Positions 2,916-45,585 of a stretch of DNA of 54,037 nucleotides are shown here, in pieces. This DNA comes from a virus. The position numbers and the translations under genes are program-made. Position 1 is the stretch's first letter; each line of letters starts with the position of its first letter. The notes beneath the pieces were generated by a model. The model saw nothing but the letters and a program-made list of their open reading frames with translations, was not told the DNA's origin and did no database searches. Where the stretch lies: positions 1-54,037 of the IMG/VR virus record IMGVR_UViG_3300023297_000011; one strand, 5' to 3'.

Positions 2916-3038
2916 TTAATTGAAAATAATAATTAAGATTACTACGAATACAAAAACTATTAATAAGCCTTTGATTAAATTTTCAGCGTCTTTTTCTGAT
3001 TTTTGTTTCTTCTCTGAATTGTAATAAGGATGTTTCAT
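2916..3038 (-). CDS. small single-pass membrane protein
   Basis: A 40-residue ORF: a charged N-terminus (MKHPYYNSEKKQ) followed by one strongly hydrophobic segment (GLLIVFVFVVILIIIF) and a short tail. It starts about 25 bp past a TATGTTTG box (3063-3070, minus strand) and lies just downstream of the tmRNA. Function unknown. Confidence 0.55.
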   Translation of the reverse strand: MKHPYYNSEKKQKSEKDAENLIKGLLIVFVFVVILIIIFN

Positions 3039-3070
3039 AATATCTTTGTTTTAAATAAACTTCAAACATA

Positions 3071-3090
3071 CCCCCGAATCGCTCCGGGGG
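3071..3090 (-). terminator. GC-rich hairpin at the 3' side of the tmRNA coding piece
   Basis: Perfect CCCCCG / CGGGGG stem with an 8-nt loop, six bases after the tag stop codon. There is no clean U-tract after it (UAUGUUUG), so it may be helix H5 or a processing or stability element of the tmRNA piece rather than a terminator. Confidence 0.5.
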
Positions 3091-3385
3091 CTCCAATTAC
3101 GCTGCTACTTTAGCTTCATAACCGAAAATATTTACTGTTTTGCCTGTTATGGCTGTTAACCCTCCGTTATACTACTTCCCTGCCTGTCAAAAACCAGTCA
3201 GCCCCGGAAGTATAGTTTTGTTTATTGCGCCATGTCCCATACTAATAGAGGAGCTACAAGCAACCTAACTATACTCATTTCTAATCGGCACGACTAAAGG
3301 CGATCACTAATCAATCCTTTAGCTTAATGTGGAGCTGGCGGGATTCGAACCCGCGTCCAAACAGTATTTCAAATAACATCAAAAG
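3091..3385 (-). ncRNA. ssrA: circularly permuted (two-piece) tmRNA
   Basis: Reading the minus strand, the acceptor half comes first. It has a T-arm at 3354-3338 (stem GCGGG/CCCGC, loop TTCGAAT), then acceptor strand CAGCUCC at 3337-3331 and discriminator A at 3330. After a 124-nt spacer comes the 5' half: GGGGCUG at 3205-3199 pairs with CAGCUCC over 7 bp including G3-U70, the alanine identity pair. It continues with GGUUUUUGACA, close to the tmRNA D-loop consensus GGNTTCGACA. The tag frame starts at GGC (3144) and reads GKTVNIFGYEAKVAA followed by UAA (3099-3097). A P2-like pairing AGUAU/AUACU joins 3173-3169 to 3367-3363. CCA is not encoded. tmRNA rescues stalled ribosomes with SmpB; no smpB gene is visible, so host SmpB would be used. 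The acceptor-piece 5' end is not determined. Confidence 0.88.
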
Positions 3386-3390
3386 GTCGT

Positions 3391-3485
3391 ACCGGATAAG
3401 GGATTGAACCTTATTAGCCCATAGGTTTAGGATTTTGCCAGTGTGATTTCTCTCCTGGGACTTATCCTTTCCTACTGCTTCCGGT
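3391..3485 (-). ncRNA. structured T-loop / pseudoknot domain upstream of tmRNA acceptor piece
   Basis: A 95-nt fold closed by ACCGGA (3485-3480) with UCCGGU (3396-3391). Next to that stem is a tRNA-like T-arm, UAAGG/CCUUA with loop UUCAAUC (3413-3397). Inside, AGGAU (3468-3464) pairs with AUCCU (3433-3429), and CCCA (3459-3456) can pair with UGGG (3421-3418), an H-type pseudoknot order. I could not fit a full tRNA: no convincing D- or anticodon arm. It may be part of the tmRNA precursor or acceptor piece, or a separate RNA. Confidence 0.5.
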
Positions 3486-40337: not shown

Positions 40338-40374
40338 TTTGAGTAATTAAGGGAATTTAGAAAGACGTTAGCAA

Positions 40375-40617
40375 TCATATTGCCTTATCATTGTGGTGAT
40401 ATTCACAATTGGGGCAATATCCGTCACATTCGTTCTGTCTGTAATCTTTTCCAGCATGGCAATACGCCACTTCGTTATTGCTAACAAGGTGCATAGAAAA
40501 TAATTTTACTATCCTATATGCAGTATCAGCCCATAGTTCTTTATGCAAAAACTCACCTTGTTCTGCATTTTTACTCATCTCTTCCATTATTATTGTAACC
40601 ATTTCTTCTTTTGTCAT
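40375..40617 (-). CDS. cassette ORF A, Cys-rich small protein
   Basis: 80 residues from MTKEEMVTIIMEEM at 40617 (a start at 40665 would lie in the attC arm). Helical first half with RIVKLFSMHLV encoded by the attC L''/R'' arms; C-terminal CPNCEYHH, possible zinc site with Cys54, Cys65 and Cys69. Its TGA touches the core GTTAGCAAT. Function unknown. Confidence 0.6.
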   Translation of the reverse strand: MTKEEMVTIIMEEMSKNAEQGEFLHKELWADTAYRIVKLFSMHLVSNNEVAYCHAGKDYRQNECDGYCPNCEYHHNDKAI

Positions 40618-40675
40618 TGTATTTAATTTTAGTATTTCAATTCCGTAAAATAAAATTCTATGCACAGACCGTTAG
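40477..40675 (+). repeat. attC-like site A
   Basis: R'' ATTGCTAAC (40477-40485) is a perfect complement of the unit's own core GTTAGCAAT (40367-40375). L'' GTGCATAGAA (40489-40498) is a perfect complement of L' TTCTATGCAC (40656-40665), ahead of the next core at 40671. The ORF start lies in the loop. Confidence 0.8.
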
Positions 40676-40914
40676 CGAGCATACTTGAAGAATATATCAC
40701 CATAACATTTTTTACATACCGTGCCATGTTTCTTTTTGTGGTGTAATGAAGCAGTATTAGCGCAAGTACATTCGCTAACAAAGTCTATATTTAAAAGTTT
40801 AACTACCCTCTTAGCACCATCTATAAATGCTTTTTCTATTTGGTAGCTATTCCTTTCAATTTTGTTTTCTTCAATATACTGCTCTGCTTCTTTCTTAATT
40901 CTTTTAATATTCAT
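40672..40914 (-). CDS. cassette ORF B, Cys-rich small protein
   Basis: 80 residues from MNIKRIKKEAEQYI at 40914. RVVKLLNIDFVSE is encoded by the attC arms; the C-terminal part has CTC and CKKC, a likely zinc site. The stop TAA is formed by the core CGTTAGCG. Confidence 0.6.
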   Translation of the reverse strand: MNIKRIKKEAEQYIEENKIERNSYQIEKAFIDGAKRVVKLLNIDFVSECTCANTASLHHKKKHGTVCKKCYGDIFFKYAR

Positions 40915-40967
40915 TGTCTTATCATTTAATCCGTTAAACTTCAAAACATAGACAGAACGTTACATGC
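40771..40967 (+). repeat. attC-like site B
   Basis: Core GTTAGCGAGCATACTTG (from 40671) matches the complement of the R'' region ending at 40779 at 14 of 17 positions. L'' 40783-40803 and L' 40933-40953 are complementary at 18 of 21. Next core at 40959. Confidence 0.8.
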
Positions 40968-41006
40968 AATTTAATATTTAATAATTGCCTGCGCACTTTT
41001 GCTTTT

Positions 41007-41717
41007 TCAAAGCAATTTATATTTAAAAAGCTTTTCCCTATTAACCTTTTTTACATTGCCATTAGCTACGTTTAGCCCATTCCTTAAGTCTCCTTCCCAA
41101 ACACATTCAAAATCATCAGGTGCGTTATATTCGCTCACAAAAACTTTATGTCCTCTATCGCTCATTTCTCTACACCATTCCCAAAAGTCAGCATGGTCAA
41201 AATCATTTTTATATTTAGTCGTCCCTTCATATGGTGGGTCGCAATAAATTAAAGCTTTGTCTGTATTTAATGGCAATTCTCGATAACTGTAGTTTAACAA
41301 CTTAACATCTTTTATTTTATCACTTTGCTTTAATGCGTTCCTATACGCTTCGTTTATATAATCTCTTTTGCCCATCTTATCTCTTCTCCACCCACCTAAC
41401 CATTTTCCACCATAACTAAATGCAAATCCAGCATATCCTTTATGTTTATAATCGTCACTTTTTCTTAATCCTTTATATTCAGCTTCGGTAAATTCTGTTT
41501 TGTCTTTAGGTAGCTCATTTACACAATCTCTAATCGTAATTAAAGCATCAATAATATGCGGGTTTATATCTGCACCTATCCTTTTACCTTCTACTTTATC
41601 AATCATATTTCCACCGCCTACCATTGGCTCAACCCAAGTCATTTCAGGTGCTCTATGTTCAAGCATTATAGGCAGTATATACTTTGCAATCCTATTCTTA
41701 CTTCCCATATATTTCAT
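41007..41717 (-). CDS. DNA adenine methyltransferase (Dam/DpnII class)
   Basis: 236 residues. Class alpha: KYMGSKNRIAKYILPIM at the N-terminus, motif I WVEPMVGGGNM (28-38), motif IV DPPY (160-163), and VFVSEYNAPDDF near the end, as in D12-class Dam enzymes. Target site not predictable. It would protect phage DNA from host nucleases. An AGGGAGG-type ribosome site (41724-41731) lies seven bases before the ATG, unusual for this genome and a sign of different origin. It is the only cassette unit with no R''. Confidence 0.9.
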   Translation of the reverse strand: MKYMGSKNRIAKYILPIMLEHRAPEMTWVEPMVGGGNMIDKVEGKRIGADINPHIIDALITIRDCVNELPKDKTEFTEAEYKGLRKSDDYKHKGYAGFAFSYGGKWLGGWRRDKMGKRDYINEAYRNALKQSDKIKDVKLLNYSYRELPLNTDKALIYCDPPYEGTTKYKNDFDHADFWEWCREMSDRGHKVFVSEYNAPDDFECVWEGDLRNGLNVANGNVKKVNREKLFKYKLL

Positions 41718-41805
41718 AAAAAACCCTCCCTATTTTTAATTTTTTAGTTACGTTCATTTAATTATCTTTTGTGCTTATTGTCGCTACGTTTCATACAACC
41801 ATACG

Positions 41806-42045
41806 TTATAAACAACATTGCTCACAATAAATGCAATTAACTTCCTCTTGTGGTGTATTGTCGCCTATAAGTATTTTCCCTGTCCCTGCACAGTGTTCGC
41901 AATGCAGATTTATAACACAAGGTATATTTAATGCTTGCATTATCTTTTCATAACAGTCTGTCAAATTGCAGTTGCTCTGTTGTAATCCTTTTTCGTAAAC
42001 TTCAAACAATATATTTTCAATAATCTTTCTCTCAGGTCTTTTCAT
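41806..42045 (-). CDS. cassette ORF D, zinc-finger-like small protein
   Basis: 79 residues. KIMQALNIPCVIN comes from the attC arms; C-terminal CEHCAGTG and CIYCEQCC form two Cys pairs as in DnaJ-like zinc sites. Stop formed by the core CGTTATAAAC. Confidence 0.6.
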   Translation of the reverse strand: MKRPERKIIENILFEVYEKGLQQSNCNLTDCYEKIMQALNIPCVINLHCEHCAGTGKILIGDNTPQEEVNCIYCEQCCL

Positions 42046-42100
42046 TTAATCAAATTTTTTCGGTTAATTGCCACTATTCTTACACGAGCCGTTATAGCAA
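41909..42100 (+). repeat. attC-like site D
   Basis: R'' TTTATAAC (41909-41916) complements core GTTATAAAC (41805), and both sides continue to a shared CATTGC. L''/L' pairing is weaker than in the other sites. Next core at 42091. Confidence 0.65.
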
Positions 42101-42433
42101 ATGGAAGCTATCACTTAGTGCATTTGTTTCCTTTAGTTTTTCAAACAACGTCTCTGCAATTTCTACTCTTTGATAATGTTCCGCACAAGTTAGCGAAGCC
42201 GCAGCACCTATCATAAAGTGCTTAATGCGTTCAGCTTTTCCACTTGCAATAACATTTTGTAAATTGCAGTTGCTATCGCTTTTTTCAGTACCGTTCACTT
42301 GCTCCTGCTCTCTTAGGAAAAGCTCAGCTTTATTCTCAACTCTTATTCTAATGTTGTGGTCATAATCATTTTCAACCATCCACATATAAAAGTCAGTTAT
42401 TAATTTACGTTCTTTTTTGAAAGGACTTTTCAT
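42092..42433 (-). CDS. cassette ORF E, hypothetical
   Basis: 113 residues; NCNLQNVIASGKAERI from the attC arms; AERIKHFMIGAAASL follows. No cysteine finger. Stop TAA in core CGTTATAGC. Confidence 0.6.
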   Translation of the reverse strand: MKSPFKKERKLITDFYMWMVENDYDHNIRIRVENKAELFLREQEQVNGTEKSDSNCNLQNVIASGKAERIKHFMIGAAASLTCAEHYQRVEIAETLFEKLKETNALSDSFHLL

Positions 42434-42525
42434 GATTTCGTTTTCTATTTTGGTTATTCAACTTTATTTGTTCTAATCAAATTCATCGGTTAATTAGCAA
42501 CGCAACATACGCCAACGTTACCACA
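42244..42525 (+). repeat. attC-like site E
   Basis: Core GTTATAGCAAATGGAA (42091) complements the R'' region ending TTGCAATAAC (42244-42253) with two mismatches over 16. L'' 42259-42275 pairs with L' TAGCAACGCAACATAC (42495-42510). Next core 42517. Confidence 0.75.
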
Positions 42526-42533
42526 TCAGTTTA

Positions 42534-42824
42534 CTACAGGTACTGCCTACATACACCACATTGCAGTCTATTATTGTAACTTAACCGCCTTTGCGAGTGT
42601 GGGTGCTTGCAAACCGTCACTTCGCTATGGGTAACACGTTGTATATTCAAGCTGCTTGCGCTCTCAGGAGAACCCTTCTCCGCCCACTCTTTTATAATAA
42701 CATCTTTTGCGTCTGACAGTATTCTAATATCATCTAATACCGAACACACTTCTTCGAATAATTCACAGCCTATTTTATCTTCGAGCATAGTCTGTATTGT
42801 TTCTACTCTTAAATTAATTCCCAT
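42534..42824 (-). CDS. cassette ORF F, Cys/His small protein
   Basis: 96 residues from the ATG at 42824 (MGINLRVETIQ). SSLNIQRVTHSE is attC-encoded; C-terminal CKHPHSQ...CGVCRQYL suggests a zinc site. Stop just after core 42517. Confidence 0.6.
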   Translation of the reverse strand: MGINLRVETIQTMLEDKIGCELFEEVCSVLDDIRILSDAKDVIIKEWAEKGSPESASSLNIQRVTHSEVTVCKHPHSQRRLSYNNRLQCGVCRQYL

Positions 42825-42907
42825 CACACTTGTATTTGATTTATATTCTCGTTTCTAATTTATCGGTAATCCATCAGCGGTCAAAACAAACACAGGTCGT
42901 TGGAGCT
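42628..42907 (+). repeat. attC-like site F
   Basis: R'' TGGGTAAC (42628-42635) against core GTTACCACA (42517): six pairs. L''/L' is imperfect. Next core CGTTGG at 42899. Confidence 0.6.
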
Positions 42908-42927
42908 AATTGCGCTCGCATCATAAA

Positions 42928-43170
42928 TCATTTTGGCTCCTTTTGAAGTCCGCATATATCACAACTACCATTCGGTGCGTAAGCCGCCAATATTCCACAT
43001 CTACAAAATGATTTACTGGCTCCCTTTTCGGTATTTACATTATAAACCTTTTTTAGCTTCGCCTCTAATTCTTTTACTCTTTTTTGTAGGCTATCAAATT
43101 CATCAGAAGTTGAGCCAGTATCAAAATACTTATTACCAATTTTTCCAAATAATCTACCGTGATATTCCAT
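42928..43170 (-). CDS. cassette ORF G2, zinc-finger small protein
   Basis: 80 residues: coiled-coil middle (EFDSLQKRVKELEAKLKKV) and C-terminal CRCGILAAYAPNGSCDICG, a four-Cys site. Shares a unit with the 43189 gene. Confidence 0.6.
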   Translation of the reverse strand: MEYHGRLFGKIGNKYFDTGSTSDEFDSLQKRVKELEAKLKKVYNVNTEKGASKSFCRCGILAAYAPNGSCDICGLQKEPK

Positions 43171-43188
43171 TGTATTAGTTTAAAAAGT

Positions 43189-43356
43189 TTATAATTCCCA
43201 ATCCCGACAATTAGCTCCAGGTATATTTAAAATTTTTAACTGCTGTTTTAAACTTTCATTTTCTTTGTATAAATTGGAGCAAAACTTCTTTAGATTTTCT
43301 ATTTGCTCATCTTTTGTTAGTGGTTTATTACCTCCGCCTGTTGTTACTTGTACCAT
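43189..43356 (-). CDS. cassette ORF G1, 55-residue coiled-coil protein
   Basis: ATG at 43356; MVQVTTGGGNKPLTKDEQIE, then a coiled coil and the ending LNIPGANCRDWEL encoded by attC arms. Too short for most gene finders. Confidence 0.55.
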   Translation of the reverse strand: MVQVTTGGGNKPLTKDEQIENLKKFCSNLYKENESLKQQLKILNIPGANCRDWEL

Positions 43357-43414
43357 AATATTCGTTCATTTAATCCGTTAAAAATTCAAAACATACCTGC
43401 GGCCGTTACAACCC
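43208..43414 (+). repeat. attC-like site G (R'' lacks AAC)
   Basis: CAATTAGCTCCA (43208-43219) is a perfect 12-bp complement of the bases after core GTTGGAGC (42899), but the AAC of R'' has become AGG. L'' (43221-43240) and L' (43377-43396) are complementary at most positions. Next core 43405. Confidence 0.7.
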
Positions 43415-43417
43415 ATA

Positions 43418-43789
43418 CTAATCAGCTTTTATCATAGATTCATGGAAGTGGGTTGACCAGTCATTTGTGCCGCATAAATAATATTTAGGATCTTCGTGGT
43501 AATCTTCAACTTCTGCTTTTTGCCAAACACAACCCACTAGTACTCTTACTTTTTGACCTTTTGTAAAAGTACGGGTTGTAACACGTGCTATATTCAAGCT
43601 ACCGCTTTCTTCATCATTGGGCTTGCTTTCACACGTTCTCAATAACTTTATTTCTTCCATTATTTGCATCATTTCTAAATTTGCAGCATTCTGAATTGAT
43701 ATACTGCTTCCATGTGAATAATTATAAGAAGCAGTATTTAATTTTTGCTGTAATTCATTTAATATACTTTCCCTCTCTTCGTTTTCCAT
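43418..43789 (-). CDS. cassette ORF I, hypothetical
   Basis: 123 residues: helical first part, GSLNIARVTTRTF from attC arms, then a small beta domain (GQKVRVLVGCVWQKAEVEDY) like a KOW/Tudor-type barrel, tentative. Confidence 0.6.
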   Translation of the reverse strand: MENEERESILNELQQKLNTASYNYSHGSSISIQNAANLEMMQIMEEIKLLRTCESKPNDEESGSLNIARVTTRTFTKGQKVRVLVGCVWQKAEVEDYHEDPKYYLCGTNDWSTHFHESMIKAD

Positions 43790-43862
43790 TGTATTTTATT
43801 CTAATAAATTTATGTATAAGTTTTGATTAGTAGTCTGAACATAGCACAACACCGTTATGGCT
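43573..43862 (+). repeat. attC-like site I
   Basis: Core GTTACAACCCATAC (43405) complements the R'' region (GGGTTGTAAC, 43573-43582) at 13 of 14. L'' GTGCTATATTCA (43585-43596) complements L' TGAACATAGCAC (43836-43847) at 11 of 12. Next core 43854. Confidence 0.85.
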
Positions 43863-44163
43863 AATTGCCAATAACCTTTTTCAGCATATAGTGCTTAACC
43901 CATTTTACTCCTGCTCTTACTCCTTCTGGCATCCATACACCTTCTGCTATAGATGACATAGAATTATCATAACTACTTGCTTCTGCTTCAATTTCCTTAT
44001 CAGAAGGCAACATAGCCATAACATCAGCTATATTTAAAAGTTTAACTGTCACCCTTACAGCTTCTTCTACTAATCTCAAATCTTTTCCTATAAGTTCATT
44101 CCCTGCATTTATGAACTCAGTTTTTACATTATTTTCTAATTGTTTTAATTCTGATTTTCTCAT
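43861..44163 (-). CDS. cassette ORF J, hypothetical
   Basis: 100 residues; VTVKLLNIADVMAM encoded by the attC arms; C-terminal GVRAGVKWVKHYMLKKV resembles small phage accessory proteins. Function unknown. Confidence 0.6.
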   Translation of the reverse strand: MRKSELKQLENNVKTEFINAGNELIGKDLRLVEEAVRVTVKLLNIADVMAMLPSDKEIEAEASSYDNSMSSIAEGVWMPEGVRAGVKWVKHYMLKKVIGN

Positions 44164-44217
44164 AATATTGTAGTTATTAATCCGTTAAACTTCAAAACAT
44201 ACCTAAACGTTAGGCAC
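44014..44217 (+). repeat. attC-like site J
   Basis: R'' AGCCATAAC (44014-44022) complements core GTTATGGCT (43854) perfectly. L'' (44027-44046) pairs with L' (44184-44203) at most positions. Next core 44209. Confidence 0.8.
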
Positions 44218-44226
44218 AATATTTTA

Positions 44227-45093
44227 TTAATTTTGCCCTCGCTCTTTGGTTTTTTCAAAACCATTTAGAAAAATATCATCGTCAAACTGTTTTAATCTTT
44301 CGTGTGTTATTTCACAATATTCAGCACTTAATTCACTACCAATCCACTTTCGTTTGTTTAGTATAGCCATTTTAGCAGTCGTTCCACTACCCATAAAACA
44401 ATCATAAACTAAATTTCCCTCATTGCTCCAACTTATTATATGGTCGTTTGCAAGTTGTTCAGGAAATATTGCAGGGTGTTTAAATGCAATCTTGTCTTTT
44501 GTGCTATTTTGGTTTCCTCTTGGCAATTCCCAAACATTACTCTTTACTCTTGTGTTGTCTTTTCTTGCTCGTTCCTTTCTTGTAAATCCATTTGTATTGT
44601 CAATTCTTTTTAAGCTGCCATCAACTTGTCTTTCTCCACCAACACCAGTTTTATTTTTTTGTCTTTTTAATGTTCCTTCTGTCTTAGGTTGTCTTAATAA
44701 ATTTACGGTTTTTGGTTTTCCTTTGCTAAACACAAACATATATTCAAAATCTTGGTAATATCTAACAACATCAGGGAAAGCACAAGTTCTTTTATAAATC
44801 ATTGTATCGTGCAAATTAAATCCTGCATCTTCTACAAACAATATTGCAGTTTTAAAACTTGTTAGGCTTTCACAATAGTTTTTAGTCTTATCATTTACAA
44901 CCCAAACAACAATTCCACCTTCTTTTGTAACTCTATAAAGTTCTTTTGCTATTTCTTTTAATGGTAGCGTAAACCCTTTGTATGTTCTGACATCGTCATA
45001 CGGTGGAGATGTTACTGTCAAATCAACAAAATTATCAGGCATTTTTGCCATCGTTTGTAAATTACTCTCGTTATATAAATAATTTGTTTTCAT
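44227..45093 (-). CDS. N4/N6 DNA methyltransferase (beta class)
   Basis: 288 residues. Motif IV TSPPY (28-32) precedes motif I VYDCFMGSGTTAKMA (about 230-245), the beta-class order; IGSELSAEYCEITHERL follows as usual. Modifies amino groups of C or A; target not predictable. It is the second methyltransferase of the array. Confidence 0.9.
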   Translation of the reverse strand: MKTNYLYNESNLQTMAKMPDNFVDLTVTSPPYDDVRTYKGFTLPLKEIAKELYRVTKEGGIVVWVVNDKTKNYCESLTSFKTAILFVEDAGFNLHDTMIYKRTCAFPDVVRYYQDFEYMFVFSKGKPKTVNLLRQPKTEGTLKRQKNKTGVGGERQVDGSLKRIDNTNGFTRKERARKDNTRVKSNVWELPRGNQNSTKDKIAFKHPAIFPEQLANDHIISWSNEGNLVYDCFMGSGTTAKMAILNKRKWIGSELSAEYCEITHERLKQFDDDIFLNGFEKTKERGQN

Positions 45094-45140
45094 ATAATTA
45101 AAATTTAAAAAATTCCTCCCTAAAAAATTAAAAAATACAG

Positions 45141-45208
45141 ATGCCTAACACTGCGTCATACGTAAGTTTGTGAAAAACAAACCAACGCATACACTTCACG
45201 TTATAAAC
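45141..45208 (+). repeat. attC-like site K (compact, fully intergenic)
   Basis: R'' ATGCCTAAC (45141-45149) complements core GTTAGGCA (44209). Arms TGCGT/ACGCA (45152-45156, 45185-45189) and GTTTGT/ACAAAC (45166-45171, 45177-45182) form a hairpin before core 45200. At about 66 bp it has the canonical attC size. Confidence 0.85.
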
Positions 45209-45530
45209 AAGGTGGCTTAATTCCTGCCCAATGTGTAATACCTAGTCTTTGTTTACCGTAGGGCTCATCCCACCAACATTTTTTTGCATAGTAGCATATC
45301 CTAGGTTCTTTATTATATCCGTAACAATAGTATGGTTTGTTTTTTGGTGGTGTCTCATCTTTGTCCGCCACCCAGTTAATAACAACAGGTAAATTTAATT
45401 TTTCAACCTCACTTATGTGGTATATATTGGCAAATGCTATTAAGTCGAAGTATGTATATATTCTTCGCTCTTTTGGTAATTTACTGCTAGTTAAAAACTC
45501 TTGCTCATTAAAGAAATCTTTTGCTTCCAT
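45201..45530 (-). CDS. cassette ORF L, hypothetical
   Basis: 109 residues from MEAKDFFNEQEF at 45530. KLNLPVVINWVADKDE comes from the attC arms; Tyr/Trp/Cys-rich C-terminus. Stop in core CGTTATAAAC. Confidence 0.6.
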   Translation of the reverse strand: MEAKDFFNEQEFLTSSKLPKERRIYTYFDLIAFANIYHISEVEKLNLPVVINWVADKDETPPKNKPYYCYGYNKEPRICYYAKKCWWDEPYGKQRLGITHWAGIKPPCL

Positions 45531-45585
45531 ATTGTAGTTATTAAATCGGTTAAAAATCAAAACTTACCAAAGTGCGTTGTGAATC
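45375..45585 (+). repeat. attC-like site L
   Basis: Core GTTATAAACAAGGTGGC (45200) complements the R'' region ending GTTAATAAC (45375-45383) at 14 of 17. L'' 45388-45408 pairs with L' 45548-45568 at most positions. Last core CGTTG at 45576. Confidence 0.8.

Follow-up and report, generated by a model that had tools for sequence, protein, structure and literature searches.

The Bacteroidota are generally regarded as poor in integrons. Clusters of attC sites lacking an integron integrase (CALINs) have been published from phages, among them Polaribacter phage P12002L (Qi et al. 2023, PMC9892861), for which few attC sites were described, their divergent directions were remarked upon, and one site was found to undergo bottom-strand recombination by IntI1 in E. 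coli (PMC9892861). IntegronFinder 2.0 reported, for Bacteroidetes proper, no more than In0 elements and a single complete integron, in Salinibacter. The stretch analyzed here (the window) is the whole of IMG/VR record IMGVR_UViG_3300023297_000011, 54,037 bases, and its subject is an array of eleven gene-plus-site units at 40367-45584, with sites on the plus strand and genes on the minus strand. The initial annotation had read it as a CALIN-like cassette array, and this description is upheld by the paired arms, by the lack of an integrase, and by the turnover of units at cores in related phages. We consider it probable that the locus is a mobile gene-cassette array of a Bacteroidota integron-like system, carried by a phage that lacks the recombinase; by its anatomy, and by the exchange of units in relatives, it works like a CALIN.

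The array resembles the CALIN of phages P12002L and P12002S in its Bacteroidota phage carrier, absence of an integrase, methyltransferase cassettes, antisense genes, and long sites overlapped by genes; it belongs to a different phage and comprises eleven units, whereas six to eight consistent units per phage were seen here in P12002L and P12002S. With the IntI/attC integron, exemplified by the Vibrio integron in phage Va_90-11-286_p16, the system shares GTT cores, R and L arms, gene-plus-site units, a recombinase at one end of complete arrays, and a tendency of the bottom strand to be the more stable. It departs from that model in its XerA-like recombinases without the IntI insert, unequal spacers of 2-3 and 5-6 nt, two polar A-C mismatches, sites of up to about 285 nt (most of those in the window being longer than most attC), and phage genes antisense to the site. 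Our own scanner finds seven units whose R and L arms exceed every shuffle, more than the two attC sites that a CALIN requires, and the record has no integrase. Two features of canonical integrons, the IntI-specific insert in the linked recombinases and genes in sense to attC, are lacking; two others, a recombinase at the array end next to a first core and the gain and loss of cassettes between the G and TT of the core, are present in relatives.

All twelve C-GTTR cores of the initial annotation are present, at 40367, 40671, 40959, 41805, 42091, 42517, 42899, 43405, 43854, 44209, 45200, and 45576. Between them lie eleven units of 286-991 bp, each bounded by successive GTTR cores (R′) and made up of a single site of the form R″-L″-spacer-L′-R′ and a single gene lying antisense to it; every gene is on the minus strand. 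Along the plus strand, R′ (GTTRNNN) is followed first by the minus-strand gene, entered at its 3′-end, then by R″ (NNNYAAC) and L″, and, after a middle section that varies, by L′ and the R′ of the following unit; R″ and L″ are 2-5 nt apart, L′ and the following R′ 4-7 nt. Where the site is long (about 190-285 nt), the gene passes through R″ and L″ and starts within the site; the compact 64-nt site of the N6_N4 methyltransferase unit lies outside its gene. Units 1, 2, 4, 8, 9, and 10 have an exact inverted copy of R, 8 nt or longer with the GTT counted; the R″ of unit 5 has one mismatch, units 6 and 11 have shorter copies, unit 7 has retained the arm ATTAGCTCC and lost the AAC, and none was found in unit 3. 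The R arms vary between units yet pair inside each unit, and the L arms of several units are alike. A second arm pair, L″/L′, had also been proposed; it is found as 21-23-bp pairs about 130 nt apart at four places (40489/40645, 40783/40933, 43218/43377, and 44026/44184), one of them being GTGCATAGAA/TTCTATGCAC. An Rfam scan of the array found no attC-like family.

The combined R and L pairing score of each unit was compared with 200 dinucleotide-preserving shuffles. No shuffle equaled the score of units 1, 2, 5, 8, 9, 10, and 11; the score of unit 4 was equaled by 6 and that of unit 6 by 24. Chain scores for the two complete stretches of the array are 20.5 and 26, compared with 5.5 for the best of 400 region shuffles and a maximum of 5.0 in 5.4-kb pieces of the window genome not reaching the array. 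The array with paired arms is thus real, and pairing exceeds the shuffled controls, although the ten units credited with R″/R′ pairing in the initial annotation prove generous: seven are clear and one or two further ones are likely. The scanner was tuned on these arrays, and the safeguards against this are the shuffles, the remaining genome pieces, and the chromosomal control loci; an earlier, looser version was dropped as too permissive. It detects the Vibrio array but cannot orient it, and the orientation of sites of the Bacteroidota type is based on spacer asymmetry together with the P12002L/P12002S and L020/L021 junctions described below.

Exchange of units is observed in related phages. 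P12002L and P12002S are 97.6-100% identical where they align, yet their cassettes have been exchanged, with junctions at L004:5071/L086:2472, at L004:7050/L086:4861, and at L004:7515 versus L086:5325 and 6419, where P12002S carries three extra units. Two of these junctions are at the core; at the third, one-sided identity stops 6-10 nt before it. A second, independent pair, the IMG/VR contigs L020 and L021 with 99% identity, is distinguished by a 277-bp unit present in one of them as an insertion at an AAC/GTT core. In both pairs, the junctions lie at or beside 3-base cores and the flanking homology is slight. A methyltransferase unit with 97% identity is found in different surroundings in L025 and L026 and ends at a core. 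In the same two loci (near 500-620 of L025 and 6870-6990 of L026) the outer stem of a site is common while the inner stem and middle are unrelated, as would result from a separate replacement of the hairpin tip. A unit running from R″ to R″, which would place the phage genes in sense, was considered and rejected because the P12002L/P12002S and L020/L021 junctions are at or next to R′ cores. The check set beforehand, that the indels of related phages should fall at GTT cores, came out as predicted, with units gained, lost, and swapped there; the exchange is shown in these relatives and not in the window phage itself.

Arrays of the same anatomy were found by the scanner in 13 of the IMG/VR loci fetched by means of the methyltransferases, chains being reported at a score of at least 8 (best shuffle 7.5 over 168 strand-loci). 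In a further case (L108), a phage binned in a Bacteroidota metagenome-assembled genome, the array adjoins the terminase. Contig G001 (IMG/VR 3300043411_001575; 169 kb) carries an array of roughly 40 sites spanning about 77-115.7 kb, or ~38 kb, which stops where a tyrosine recombinase gene starts (loci L093-L095 and L087). G001 is a putative virus rather than a proven one: tail-fibre-like, RtcB, and HNH genes are present and phrog_38 (terminase) is unmatched. Over all arrays, site lengths cluster near 64, 94-97, 130-133, and 193-207 nt, in steps of roughly 33-66 nt that are unexplained. Mismatches in the stems are polar, A in L″ facing C in L′ 169 times and the reverse arrangement occurring 7 times (window, P12002, other phages, and chromosomes; Vibrio excluded), and they become T-G wobbles on the bottom strand. 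Folding with DNA parameters reveals the bottom strand to be the more stable in 13/13 sites of P12002, 40/41 of G001, and 20/21 chromosomal sites.

The recombinase of G001 has XerA as its best family (NCBIfam NF040815, 206 bits against a cut-off of 220) and PDB 4a8e as its nearest solved chain. The array-linked recombinases nevertheless differ from XerA as defined by NF040815 and 4a8e, since they score below the cut-off and are associated with hairpin cassette sites in place of a dif site. Relatives of the G001 enzyme at E below 1e-45 are present in 105 of 395 Bacteroidota genomes (six-frame search); a peptide-pattern search of genome contigs with this recombinase gave no match. An array with a chain score of at least 6 lies within 3.5 kb of the recombinase at 24 of 42 XerA-like loci, versus 0 of 20 other loci in the same genomes (p 4e-6). 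In most of these relatives the first core, which occupies an attI-like position, precedes the recombinase match by 94-130 bp or follows it by 45-117 bp. The layout with the array downstream is clustered on the recombinase tree (0/500 shuffles as low); some chromosomal array-linked recombinases (L156, L157, and L169) combine an N-terminal extension with a downstream rather than divergent array. At L100, whose recombinase is 79% identical to that of G001, the upstream stretch is similar and the neighboring unit is different right from the core.

Some phages encode such an enzyme. The cultivated Polaribacter phage Danklef_1 (L212, 35300-41500) has a cassette array beside a truncated XerA-like recombinase, and its close relative Freya_1 (L214) has an intact recombinase of 271 aa (XerA NF040815, 146 bits) and no array at that place. 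The left junction between the two phages coincides with the GTT of R″ instead of R′, a position for which simple integron recombination does not account. The insert near patch III that is specific to IntI is absent from the G001 recombinase, from its aligned chromosomal relatives (compared with the Vibrio IntI), and from that of Freya_1, and no IntI with its insert was seen beside arrays of this site type. In place of the canonical IntI system implied by the initial annotation, the recombinases found beside these arrays are XerA-like. The absence of an integrase from the window is as annotated, no match to PF00589 being found anywhere in the record; a recombinase of this kind is likewise absent from P12002L and P12002S, and for all three phages it would have to act in trans.

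A difference between phage and chromosomal arrays emerged when genes of at least 100 aa were counted, with site polarity defined identically in both. Genes are in sense to the site in 58/60 chromosomal cases and antisense in 48/52 phage cases (Fisher p 2e-24), and most of the four phage exceptions belong to chains called on the other strand from the main array; in the window, 7/7 genes are antisense. The split favors a cassette pool of the phages' own and disfavors simple capture from host integrons. The proposal that the phage acquires genes from host integrons is thus unsupported, because the phage cassettes are antisense and the chromosomal Bacteroidota cassettes are in sense. A unit moved between a phage and a chromosomal array would oppose the local transcription.

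The array lies between a lysozyme module and replication genes in a genome with a tailed phage gene set (large terminase, portal, tape measure, RecT, DnaA-C, NinG, and lysozyme). Its host is most likely a Bacteroidota bacterium, because the relatives of the portal protein are from Polaribacter and Tenacibaculum phages, plus four unassigned, and those of the DUF2303-like protein are mainly from Bacteroides, Phocaeicola, Cellulophaga, and Flavobacterium phages. An exact search of viral contigs for the window L′ motif CCGTTAAACTTCAAAACATA gave no match, and a search for close relatives via the DnaC-like gene returned a single 31% locus. Elsewhere in the window, ARAGORN calls a permuted transfer-messenger RNA gene at 3006-3419 (minus strand) with the tag GKTVNIFGYEAKVAA; the match to Rfam RF04321 is 73 bits.

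The individual units can be summarized as follows, open reading frames (ORFs) all being on the minus strand. Unit 1 (40367-40670) has R′ at 40367, R″ at 40477-40485, L″ at 40489-40509, and L′ at 40645-40665, a site of 199 nt, and a small ORF (40375-40665) with cysteine pairs. Unit 2 (40671-40958; ORF 40672-40944) has an R″ ending at 40779, L″ at 40783-40803, and L′ at 40933-40953, its site measuring 193 nt. The D12-class adenine methyltransferase of unit 3 (40959-41804) is encoded at 41007-41717. In unit 4 (41805-42090) the R″ is at 41909-41916, the L pair is weak, and the cysteine-pair ORF spans 41806-42045; unit 5 (42091-42516; ORF 42092-42433) has an R″ ending at 42253 and a 277-nt site. 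Unit 6 (42517-42898) combines a short R″ ending at 42635 with a weak L pair and a cysteine-pair ORF at 42534-42827, and unit 7 (42899-43404; ORF 42928-43170) a damaged R″ at 43210 with a strong L pair (43218-43240/43377-43399). Unit 8 (43405-43853; ORF 43418-43789) possesses an R″ at 43573-43582 and a site of 285 nt. Unit 9 (43854-44208; ORF 43861-44163) shows R″ at 44013-44022, L″ at 44026-44046, and L′ at 44184-44204 in a 200-nt site. The compact site of unit 10 (44209-45199) has its R″ at 45142-45149, and the N6_N4 DNA methyltransferase is encoded at 44227-45093. Unit 11 (45200-45575; ORF 45201-45560) has an R″ ending at 45383 and a site of 206 nt up to the last core at 45576.

Both DNA methyltransferases named as cargo in the initial annotation are recognized by Pfam, at 3e-14 (D12-class, unit 3) and 3e-42 (N6_N4, unit 10). 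Its many small zinc-type proteins are borne out in part: direct reading of the sequences reveals cysteine pairs in the proteins of units 1, 2, 4, 6, and 7, but a Pfam search assigned them to no family at its cut-off. The nearest DNA match to the methylase of unit 3 is the methylase cassette of P12002L (67% DNA identity), and CALINs in phages, that of P12002L included, had already been published (PMC9892861), a correction to the initial annotation.

Several observations weigh against reading the locus as a mobile array served by a XerA-like enzyme. Units 3, 6, and 7 are weak or damaged, and units 3 and 7 do not rise above chance in the 200 shuffles. The bottom strand is the more stable in only 5/7 window sites (p 0.08), which is not significant for the window alone. 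No close relative of the window phage was found with which turnover in its own array could be compared. Some exchange ends at R″ or within the stem rather than at R′, there is no array at 18/42 of the XerA-like recombinase loci, and the sole published enzyme assay of a related site was done with IntI1 and not with a XerA-like recombinase. That assay, in which a P12002L site recombined in E. coli (PMC9892861), suits a canonical CALIN, that is, ordinary cassettes taken from host integrons and mobilized by the host's classical IntI, and so do the attC-like R and L arms, the cores divided between G and TT, and the bottom-strand bias. We regard this as unlikely, given that the genes are antisense in phages and in sense in chromosomal arrays, that XerA-like enzymes and not insert-bearing IntI are seen beside these arrays, and that IntegronFinder 2.0 recorded so little in Bacteroidetes proper.

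The array might instead be a dead relic, formerly mobile and now decayed and fixed in the window phage, as the lost or weak arms of units 3, 6, and 7, the lack of a recombinase in the record, and the overlap of genes with long sites could suggest. Seven units, however, retain arms well beyond chance, and the P12002 array has exchanged units despite having similar long, gene-overlapped sites; this makes decay and fixation decidedly improbable. Least credible of all is that the stem-loops are RNA or transcription elements that control translation or termination at gene starts, the gene order being shuffled by homologous recombination. Such a role would agree with stems that enclose gene starts in the long sites and with the similarity of the L arms in several units. 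It fits poorly with R arms that are unit-specific yet paired within the unit, with P12002L/P12002S and L020/L021 junctions at or beside 3-base cores with little flanking homology, with compact sites outside genes, and with chromosomal sites that follow genes in sense orientation.

Under the preferred reading of a mobile cassette array, the bottom strand of single-stranded DNA would fold into the R/L hairpin, and a XerA-type tyrosine recombinase without the IntI insert would cut between G and TT and join the unit to another site. Because the window phage has no recombinase, the enzyme would be supplied by the host or by a co-infecting phage. The units may in this way spread among phages, with the array as a reservoir from which small genes and DNA methyltransferases could be exchanged; the methyltransferases probably counter host restriction.

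Three aspects look new: the recurrence of the site signature (short unequal spacers and A-C mismatches that give T-G wobbles) beside XerA-like recombinases in Bacteroidota chromosomes; the encoding of such a recombinase by some phages (Freya_1 and, if viral, the 169-kb contig), the window phage not being one of them; and the orientation of cassette genes, opposite to the site in phages and along it in chromosomes. We found neither XerA-type integron platforms in Bacteroidota nor inverted phage cassettes described in the open-access literature searched; preprints and most subscription papers were outside the search and priority is uncertain. On balance we lean, with some reserve, towards a second integron lineage in Bacteroidota and their phages, with XerA-like recombinases lacking the IntI insert and wobble-marked bottom-strand hairpins missed by standard tools, together with a separate phage pool whose inverted cassettes follow the direction of phage transcription and would be silent in host arrays.

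If the linkage of recombinase and array reflects function, the Bacteroidota would possess a widespread cassette system that is invisible to detectors seeking the IntI insert and typical attC sites, and integron-type recombination would be possible without that insert, which bears on the origins of integrons. The split in orientation suggests that phages and hosts maintain separate gene pools on the same kind of site. For lytic phages, these arrays may be a route by which methyltransferases and small genes are swapped one unit at a time.

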